Origin: a candidate division TA06 bacterium
GTDB taxonomy: Bacteria > Edwardsbacteria > AC1 > EtOH8
Direction: 5' to 3'
Length of the DNA: 64,000 nucleotides
Assembly (NCBI GenBank): GCA_016235665.1
Contig: JACRJI010000006.1
Location: 1 to 64,000 of the forward strand
Shown one piece after another: positions 44,041 through 46,529 of this stretch. The notes under the pieces are model-generated. The model worked only from the letters and a program-made list of their open reading frames with translations, ran no database searches and was not told the origin of the DNA. The position numbers and the translations under genes are program-made. Within the stretch, counting starts at the first letter, position 1. Every line of letters begins with the position of its first letter.

Positions 44041-44069
44041 AAAGCCCCCCGCCAAAGGCGGGGGGCTTT
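44041..44069. terminator. Bidirectional terminator between YfhO and GIY-YIG genes
   Basis: AAAGCCCCCCGCC (44041-44053) and GGCGGGGGGCTTT (44057-44069) form a perfect 13-bp stem with an AAA loop, with A-runs on the left and T-runs on the right. It serves the plus-strand YfhO gene and the converging minus-strand GIY-YIG gene, whose stop codon it overlaps. The CCGCC-AAA-GGCGG core matches the palindromic elements elsewhere in the window. Confidence 0.9.
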
Positions 44070-44355
44070 ACTTTTGTATCAATGCCTTTATTAAAAGAGT
44101 TTTTTGTATTCGGGTCAGTGTTTTTATTTCCAGTTCCCGGCGCAAGGCCCGGCCTTTGGTTGGCAGTATTTCCTGATAGACTGCCTTCACCGGCAGTCTT
44201 GATCTGGTATATTTGGAAGCAGTACCTGTGGCATGGTTTTTTAAACGCTTGGCCAGATCGTTGGTAATGCCGGTGTAGTAGCTTCCATCGCTGCATTTAA
44301 GGATGTAAACCAGCCATTCTTTGGCAGTTGTGGTTTTTGTTTTATTTGAGATCAC
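44068..44355 (-). CDS. GIY-YIG domain protein (UPF0213-like)
   Basis: The 95-residue protein has VYILKCSDGSYYTGITNDLAKRL, with GIY-YIG as YIL and YTG plus the catalytic Arg, and a C-terminal helix. It is the small stand-alone YhbQ-type nuclease-like form. It is convergent with YfhO. The 19-bp gap to the EamA stop suggests one minus-strand unit with EamA upstream. Confidence 0.85.
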   Translation of the reverse strand: MISNKTKTTTAKEWLVYILKCSDGSYYTGITNDLAKRLKNHATGTASKYTRSRLPVKAVYQEILPTKGRALRRELEIKTLTRIQKTLLIKALIQK

Positions 44356-45444: not shown

Positions 45445-45538
45445 TGGCGGAGAGTCAGGGATTTGAACCCCGGATCCCGTTCATCACGGGATACACGATT
45501 TCGAGTCGTGCGCCTTCAGCCAGCTCGGCCAACTCTCC
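45445..45538 (-). tRNA. tRNA-Ser (CGA)
   Basis: On the minus strand the acceptor arm GGAGAGT pairs with ACTCTCC and is followed by discriminator G and an encoded CCA (complement of 45445-45447). The anticodon loop CTCGAAA reads CGA between CACGA and TCGTG stems. A long variable arm (ATCCCGT/ACGGGAT) and the T-loop GGTTCAAATC are present. The total of 94 nt with CCA fits a class II serine tRNA. Confidence 0.96.
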
Positions 45539-45581
45539 GCTTATTTAATCAACAATTAATGGGAAACAAGTAAATGATTGG

Positions 45582-45653
45582 TCATGCGCCTTTTCCGCCT
45601 TGGGCGGGACCTCGTCTGCCCCGCTAAAAGCGGCTACTACAGCGGTGACAGCA
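45582..45653. repeat. Left tRNA-Ser-derived repeat with palindromic insert
   Basis: TCATGCGCCTT (45582-45592) matches the tRNA-Ser segment at 45506-45516 with one change. It is followed at once by a CCGCCTTGGGCGG palindrome, as in the right-hand copy at 45905. The block ends with GCGGTGACAGC, close to GCGGTGGCAGC of the right copy. It lies between the intact tRNA and the GIY-YIG gene and forms a degenerate direct repeat with 45905-45954. Confidence 0.65.
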
Positions 45654-45659
45654 TTCCAT

Positions 45660-45902
45660 TTAGGGATTTACCAATTTCTTAAAAGCATTGCCGCCTTTGT
45701 ATCTCTTGATCTGCCGCTCTCGACGGTAAGCATCGTCTCTGGTCTTAAATTCTTCAGAATGCACCAAAACAAAAGGTCCTTGATTCTTAATTGATTTGGT
45801 TTGATTGGCGTTATGTCGTTGTAACCGCTGTGCCAAGTCTGAAGTGTAGCCGGTATAATATTTATTTGTCGTAGTACTTTGTATGATATAGACACAATAC
45901 AT
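45660..45902 (-). CDS. GIY-YIG endonuclease-like protein
   Basis: The 80-residue protein is a complete small GIY-YIG domain: MYCVYIIQSTTTNKYYTGYT with the YIx-YTG pair, an Arg in DLAQRLQRHN, and Glu in RRERQIKRYKGG. Relatives are abundant in FCB bacteria and often sit beside tRNA genes. Its start codon lies 2 bp from a split copy of the tRNA-Ser 5' half, and its stop is close to another partial copy. This context suggests a mobile cassette; that is inference. Confidence 0.88.
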   Translation of the reverse strand: MYCVYIIQSTTTNKYYTGYTSDLAQRLQRHNANQTKSIKNQGPFVLVHSEEFKTRDDAYRRERQIKRYKGGNAFKKLVNP

Positions 45903-45904
45903 AA

Positions 45905-46034
45905 TCGTGCGCCTTTCCCGCCTTGGGCGGAACCCCGCTGAGGCGGTGGCAGCCAGCTCGGCTCACCTCCGCTTGGGGCGGAGGGACCCCGCCGCTATTA
46001 TATTTCTTTCTTTGAGGCGGTGGCAACTCTCCGC
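45905..46034 (-). pseudogene. Duplicated 5' part of tRNA-Ser split by two palindromic inserts
   Basis: Three blocks match tRNA-Ser exactly and in order: 45905-45915 equals 45506-45516, 45950-45962 equals 45517-45529, and 46024-46034 equals 45530-45540. Together they give 35 identical bases, covering the anticodon-stem side through the D arm to the 5' end plus two bases. Between them are inserts of 34 bp (45916-45949) and 61 bp (45963-46023). Both inserts end in GAGGCGGTGG and carry CCGC/GCGG stems. It cannot make a tRNA. Confidence 0.85.
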
Positions 46035-46064: not shown

Positions 46065-46529
46065 TTAGGGTTTTACTGAACGTCTTTTTTTAAAGAAATC
46101 TCTCAGCATTTGCGAAGCCTCATTTTCTAGCAAGCCTCTCTCAATCAGTATCCGGTGGTTAAGGCGGGAGTCCTCGACGATATTGAACACCGAGCCGCAG
46201 GCCCCGGCCTTGGGGTCGGATGCAGCAAACACCAGCCGGTCTATCCGGGCCAGTACCATAGCTCCGGCGCACATGGCGCAGGGCTCCAGGGTCACGTACA
46301 AGGTGCAGCCGGTAAGCCGCCAGCGGCCCAGTTTTTTGGCGGCCTGCCTTAGGGCAATGATCTCGGCGTGGCGGGAGGCGTCCTTTTTTGTCTCCACCTG
46401 GTTCCAGCCCCGGCCCACGATCTTTTCCCCACAAACAACCACGGCCCCCACCGGGACTTCGTGGTTCAGGGCCGCTTTTCGGGCCAGGTCTATTGCCCGG
46501 CCCATCAAATTTTGGTCGTTACGGTTCAT
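46065..46529 (-). CDS. tadA: tRNA-specific adenosine deaminase
   Basis: The 154-residue zinc deaminase makes inosine at the wobble base of tRNA. The active-site HAEIIALRQA (His and catalytic Glu) and the PCAMCAGAMV cysteines are present, together with ASDPKAGACGSV and the C-terminal LRDFFKKRR that TadA uses for tRNA. It is the first gene of the minus-strand block; the HK gene diverges from it. Confidence 0.94.
   Translation of the reverse strand: MNRNDQNLMGRAIDLARKAALNHEVPVGAVVVCGEKIVGRGWNQVETKKDASRHAEIIALRQAAKKLGRWRLTGCTLYVTLEPCAMCAGAMVLARIDRLVFAASDPKAGACGSVFNIVEDSRLNHRILIERGLLENEASQMLRDFFKKRRSVKP

Follow-up and report, generated by a model that had tools for sequence, protein, structure and literature searches.

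Slx1-like GIY-YIG nuclease genes beside tRNA genes and hairpin-bearing tRNA fragments in many bacterial phyla

Slx1-like GIY-YIG nuclease genes are found beside tRNA genes in many bacterial phyla, on the same strand as the tRNA and usually next to a broken copy of it. We consider it probable that the nuclease gene, together with part of the tRNA that it targets, forms a selfish, horizontally spreading, homing-like cassette, of which the window (the whole 64,000-nucleotide stretch from a candidate division TA06 bacterium analyzed here) carries one copy. The genomes themselves show the association, the strand, the anatomy of the loci, and orthologous sites with and without the gene. They also show that the catalytic residues are intact, that the gene is under purifying selection, and that the tRNA kind follows the protein tree across phyla. 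DNA cutting and homing rest on inference alone, as does the role of the hairpins.

The tRNA-Ser locus and its nuclease

The features of the locus are listed in Table 1. In tRNA orientation, the broken 5′ half, the GIY-YIG gene, and the decayed copy are all located upstream of tRNA-Ser(CGA). A preliminary description of the DNA had reported three exact tRNA blocks in order at 45905-46034, and joining them does give a contiguous 5′ half that runs from tRNA nucleotide 33 to 1 plus two upstream bases. The inserts that it placed between the blocks, of 34 bp (45916-45949) and 61 bp (45963-46023), are present and each terminates in GAGGCGGTGG (plus strand), and the gene starts 2 bp from the nearest tRNA block, as had been stated. 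Folding of the 61-bp insert gives a pair of neighboring hairpins (dG -24 kcal/mol, z -4.2). The degenerate copy proposed at 45582-45653 is real but keeps little of the tRNA, being mainly the second half of the palindrome and ~11 tRNA bases.

Table 1. Features of the tRNA-Ser locus in the window
Feature	Position	Strand	Support and remarks
Intact tRNA-Ser(CGA)	45445..45538	-	Found by ARAGORN and as Rfam RF00005 (52.9 bits); G006 and G007 have it at their empty sites too
Second, decayed tRNA copy	45582..45653	-	~11 tRNA bases and a palindromic insert bearing a further nested palindrome; alignable with the same-locus tRNA copies of G002, G008, and G001
GIY-YIG (Slx1/UPF0213-like) nuclease gene, 80 aa	45660..45902	-	PF01541, E=9e-19
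tRNA-Ser block, tRNA nt 23-33	45905..45915	-	Exact match
Palindromic insert 2, 34 bp, D loop (tRNA nt 22/23 junction)	45916..45949	-	Strong hairpin; position identical in G001, G003, and G008
tRNA-Ser block, tRNA nt 10-22	45950..45962	-	Exact match
Palindromic double-hairpin insert 1, 61 bp, tRNA nt 9/10 junction	45963..46023	-	Position identical in G001, G002, and G008
tRNA-Ser block, tRNA nt 1-9 and two upstream bases	46024..46034	-	Exact match
tadA-like deaminase gene	46065..46529	-	Pfam; conserved neighbor marking the orthologous locus, outside the cassette

The arrangement is not due to chance, because the same anatomy recurs at the second such GIY-YIG gene of this genome, beside tRNA-Asn, and at dozens of loci in other phyla. 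The window protein has four matches in its own genome (G000). The tRNA-Asn locus starts with a 5′ portion of the tRNA that bears two 15-bp hairpins; the intact tRNA-Asn and then the GIY-YIG gene come next, and a 3′ portion carrying the same hairpin closes the series. A partial tRNA copy above the score threshold was found at only 1 of 35 other G000 tRNA genes examined, and that one is the tRNA-Asn locus. Elsewhere in the genome (L010:1505-1550; G000 C16:160881-160927), a 5′ fragment of tRNA-Arg, interrupted by a GC-rich double hairpin, lies between intact tRNA-Arg and tRNA-Pro genes. It has no GIY-YIG gene nearby and is read as a hairpin-marked remnant.

The window encodes another GIY-YIG protein (95 aa, 44068-44355, minus strand) that belongs to a sister family and has no adjoining tRNA of its own. 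This gene was rejected as a component of the system, since the sister family is mostly not bound to tRNA genes.

The nuclease is a standalone GIY-YIG domain with Slx1-type sequence and fold. Its PDB profile matches are 1zg2, 1ywl, and SLX1, and its AlphaFold model (pLDDT 90.8) has UPF0213 1zg2 and Slx1 as the best folds in Foldseek. The catalytic residues Y5, G18, R26, H30, and E62 are invariant in an alignment of 37 relatives. Slx1 and UPF0213 GIY-YIG proteins have been characterized as lacking a conserved C-terminal Asn (PMC1564403); in the 37-sequence alignment N72, within YKGGNAF, is nearly invariant, and its correspondence to the UvrC-type Asn is unresolved. A dN/dS of ~0.1-0.2 between close pairs indicates purifying selection. 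The separate DNA-binding region expected of a homing endonuclease is missing, as the 80 residues hold PF01541 only. Matches of homing-endonuclease models to the protein are confined to the GIY-YIG part, with TIGR01453 far below cut-off. No relative was found in IMG/VR by single-protein and profile searches, or in the phage records searched, and plasmid matches are distant GIY-YIG proteins with <60% identity.

Association with tRNA genes, gain and loss

Relatives were collected by protein sequence alone from 145 genomes and 85,000 species genomes, which gave 74 further loci and 78 in all. An intact tRNA gene lies within 300 bp of 69 of these 78 genes, and the gene is on the strand of the tRNA in all 69. 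In the sister family, to which the 95-aa window protein belongs, only 4 of 30 control loci are tRNA-adjacent (Fisher p=1.8e-13). Nine loci have no intact tRNA within that distance, and five of them match the sister family better. A further profile-found sample agrees: all 10 new loci at ~75 bits or more adjoin a same-strand tRNA. The spacing between gene and tRNA is usually <50 bp, or the two overlap. A distant relative in the cultured carrier Portibacter marinus (L123) is located 52 bp away from tRNA-Pro. Four sister-family members (L164, L165, L167, L183) have a tRNA gene <200 bp away, and a minority of that family may behave alike.

Most loci also carry a partial copy of the same tRNA (57 of 69, compared with 1 of the 35 control tRNAs of G000; Fisher p=4e-16). 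The usual orders are a broken tRNA 5′ part followed by the gene and the intact tRNA, or an intact tRNA followed by the gene and a broken tRNA 3′ part. The preliminary description had called for tRNA pieces to co-occur with GIY-YIG genes in related genomes, and these counts bear it out strongly. Its mobile cassette of tRNA fragment, palindrome, and nuclease gene is supported as well, with the amendment that the intact tRNA also belongs to the unit. Its choice of tRNA-Ser as the target also needs correction: the element is not tRNA-Ser-specific, and the main set includes 14 tRNA kinds in carriers from many phyla.

Often the gene runs into the intact tRNA at its 5′ end, and the tRNA sequence therefore encodes the C-terminus of the protein. 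At six tRNA-Ser loci (L113, L114, L116, L118-L120), the GIY-YIG frame crosses the first half of the tRNA and reaches its stop codon in the anticodon loop, giving the common C-terminus ..GEVAEWSKAA.C.

The kind of tRNA follows the protein tree, with 27 changes, whereas shuffling gives 39.7 (minimum 33); relatives from different phyla often have the same tRNA kind. The tRNA-encoded C-termini were trimmed for this tree; the protein is short and many forks are unresolved. As far as the tree can be trusted, such tracking would be expected if each lineage had adapted to one tRNA target and moved horizontally.

Orthologous sites were compared in related genomes. The tadA-like gene precedes the tRNA in G002, G003, G004, G006, G007, and G008. 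Within the same family, G006 and G007 have an empty tadA-tRNA-Ser site, with nothing but a single tRNA. In G003 a fragment carrying a single hairpin insert is found together with the decayed remains of a GIY-YIG gene, and the intact tRNA beside them is identical to that of G006. Fragments without a GIY-YIG gene are found in G002 and G008, and the tRNA-Ser site is occupied by the gene in G000 and G001, the other-side neighbor in G001 not being tadA. The tRNA-Asn site is occupied in G000, has a fragment only in G002, and is empty in G003-G006; the tRNA-Gln site is occupied in G004 and G005 and empty in G000-G002. This pattern of occupied, fragment-bearing, and empty sites indicates that the unit is gained and lost at tRNA genes. 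The comparisons are between species, not strains, and mostly involve metagenome assemblies. Both the occupied and the empty sites that the preliminary description looked for in relatives thus exist, and a GIY-YIG gene that stands beside its target and is present or absent at orthologous sites is what is expected of a free-standing homing gene.

The upstream flank of the broken copy is unlike that of the intact copy in 33 of 40 cases and common to both in 7 of 40, which indicates that the repeat begins at the tRNA itself. The remaining broken copies form tandem units that take in the end of a GIY-YIG gene (L064, L090, L095) or the upstream region of the tRNA (L082, L088). These units point to repeated rounds. 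At L064/L219 (G005) and L090, the broken tRNA is preceded by the 3′-end remnant of a second GIY-YIG gene, a trace that suggests insertion more than once or amplification in tandem. The two tRNA copies at a locus are usually identical to each other. This identity fits in-place duplication or gene conversion better than an imported tRNA part, and it counts against the homing-like cassette.

Hairpin inserts in the broken tRNA copies

The broken tRNA copies bear GC-rich single hairpins (e.g. TCCCGCCnnnGGCGGGA) or double hairpins (CCACCGCC..GGCGGGGTCCCGCC..GGCGGGA). Such inserts occur in unrelated phyla, with L075 representing a form without the GC core, and the double-hairpin shape is constant though its sequence varies (L075, L115, L117). 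GC-rich palindromes are found within 90 bp on the broken-copy side at 43 of 69 loci, compared with 4 in control stretches. By inspection, the hairpin nearest to the nuclease gene is typically separated from it by ~7-16 tRNA bases.

Among clean palindromic inserts, 17 of 23 fall within tRNA loops, against an expectation of 31% (p=3e-5). Inserts in the T loop are located at or beside TTC^RAA, and two in the anticodon loop are located mid-loop. At some loci the hairpin substitutes for part or all of a tRNA arm instead of occupying a loop, which counts against the explanation that we prefer; at tRNA-Gly and tRNA-Tyr loci, the anticodon arm is substituted almost exactly. The idea that hairpins rewrite whole tRNA arms as tRNA-like RNA was not adopted, because at tRNA-Asn the replacement affects just one strand of each stem. 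L132 and L057 carry, downstream of their intact tRNA, the 3′ end of a T arm that has a hairpin inserted in its T loop, and an inverted copy of this T arm comes before it (GAACCCC..GGGGTTC).

The hairpin core does not form a dispersed repeat, and the junction pattern occurs in zero to a few copies per genome. A dispersed palindromic repeat class (REP, RPE, or MITE) requires many genomic copies and was rejected on this count. Hairpin-bearing copies without a GIY-YIG gene are found at L010, L132, L137, and L207. In a distant genome (L201:~1490-1525; G103 C31), the same double hairpin is in frame within an apparent protein-coding gene with no tRNA near, so the hairpin is not strictly limited to tRNA copies.

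Mechanism, rival explanations, and known systems

In the homing-like cassette that we favor, the nuclease would cut the tRNA gene or resolve hairpins there, a step inferred without cleavage data. Repair would then set the nuclease gene inside the tRNA gene, with the matching tRNA part restoring an intact tRNA alongside, and the displaced tRNA half would stay on the far side. This half would gather hairpin inserts, mostly in tRNA loops and typically ~10 nt from the nuclease gene. The hairpins may either destroy the target site or form a structure on which the nuclease acts; their role is inferred. Arrays of broken tRNA copies would be the residue of repeated rounds and losses. It counts against this reading that an intact tRNA beside the gene would keep a tRNA-internal target, which implies that the site needs flanking DNA, that cutting is rare, or that the substrate is a DNA structure. 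By inference, three things speak for structure-selective activity: membership of an Slx1-like family, the absence of a DNA-binding domain, and the placing of inserts in tRNA loops. That an 80-aa protein lacks the separate DNA-binding domain of classical homing endonucleases counts against homing.

The loci could instead arise by SegB-like segmental amplification, where breaks made by the nuclease are repaired into tandem partial tRNA duplications and the gene would be less an invader than a resident that amplifies tRNA genes, perhaps usefully. The GIY-YIG nuclease SegB of phage T6 drives tandem amplification of a tRNA-Tyr-segB segment and leaves C-terminally truncated segB copies (PMC13096335), and the tandem units that include the GIY-YIG 3′ end (L064, L090) or the tRNA upstream region (L082, L088) are in keeping with it. 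We consider this unlikely, because the broken and intact copies have common upstream flanks in so few cases, the extra tRNA copies are broken and would not raise tRNA dosage, and the gene is missing at orthologous sites. Ordinary tandem tRNA duplication followed by decay, with the GIY-YIG gene as a bystander, had been named in the preliminary description as the finding that would overturn it. Partial tRNA copies do adjoin intact tRNAs, yet they are practically limited to GIY-YIG loci and start at the tRNA end, the upstream flanks are mostly unlike, and the tRNA association spans phyla; this alternative is not supported and we give it hardly any weight.

Other alternatives concern the hairpins. 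They may be a palindromic element that moves on its own and favors tRNA loops, with the GIY-YIG gene having invaded the same redundant tRNA copies separately. The constant double-hairpin shape despite sequence variation, the hairpin copies that have no GIY-YIG gene, and the copy within the G103 protein gene would all suit such an element. Its core pattern is not dispersed, with a few copies per genome at most, and the inserts are strongly concentrated beside GIY-YIG genes, which leaves this explanation doubtful, if somewhat less so than the amplification of segments. The hairpins may also act on RNA, either blocking the processing or degradation of the broken tRNA or stabilizing a nuclease mRNA co-transcribed with the tRNA. 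Here the co-stranded, closely spaced or overlapping gene and tRNA and the position of hairpins in the nuclease leader or trailer are favorable, but several inserts are distant from the gene, beyond further tRNA sequence, and a role in RNA seems rather improbable.

The nearest experimental precedent is SegB of phage T6. In phages T4 and T6, as here, the GIY-YIG nuclease gene adjoins a variety of tRNA genes, its 3′ end has sequence in common with the 5′ end of the tRNA, and tRNA-nuclease units occur in tandem (PMC13096335). Unlike SegB, the cassette protein is a bare 80-aa Slx1/UPF0213-type domain, is encoded in bacterial chromosomes, and is accompanied by hairpin inserts and broken tRNA copies. 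In sequence and fold it is like the standalone Slx1/UPF0213 (COG2827-type) GIY-YIG proteins. Prokaryotic Slx1-like proteins have been described as vertically inherited, with a predicted role in DNA repair (PMC1564403). The cassette branch differs from them in being tied to tRNA genes and patchy.

Other known elements resemble parts of the cassette. Organelle genomes carry double-hairpin elements, which are short, mobile, GC-rich double hairpins. The inserts resemble these in form but are bacterial and, for the most part, lie within broken copies of a tRNA next to members of a single nuclease family. In the Allomyces mitochondrial endonuclease element with partial atp6 duplication, an endonuclease gene arrives with a duplicate part of its target and restores the target gene; there, the target is a mitochondrial protein-coding gene and no tRNA is involved. 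tRNA genes are well-known landing sites of integrase-borne islands, which insert at the tRNA gene and leave an intact tRNA and a tRNA fragment. A tRNA-integrating island was rejected, because no integrase is found among the open reading frames around the window locus; the sole cassette gene is the 80-aa nuclease, and displaced tRNA parts are 5′ as well as 3′. A group I intron with an endonuclease in the tRNA gene was also rejected, because Rfam gives tRNA only in the window and an uninterrupted intact tRNA lies alongside.

No prior description of a tRNA-nested GIY-YIG cassette was found in the open-licence literature searched, and given that scope, its absence is not proof. A bolder claim, which we offer tentatively and with clearly less confidence than the cassette itself, is that an 80-aa structure-selective (Slx1-like) nuclease recognizes the hairpin-forming DNA of tRNA arms and double-hairpin inserts, inserts into tRNA genes of many isotypes in different bacterial phyla, and restores the tRNA at every insertion without the help of an integrase, a transposase, or a self-splicing RNA. 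This would be a new class of minimal mobile element. A tRNA-occupying, bare GIY-YIG family, present at no fewer than 14 tRNA kinds (at least 14) in many phyla, would give a role to the common and functionally vague Slx1/UPF0213-like family. It would also account for puzzling partial tRNA genes in genome annotations and would offer a very small, lab-testable nuclease system aimed at tRNA genes.
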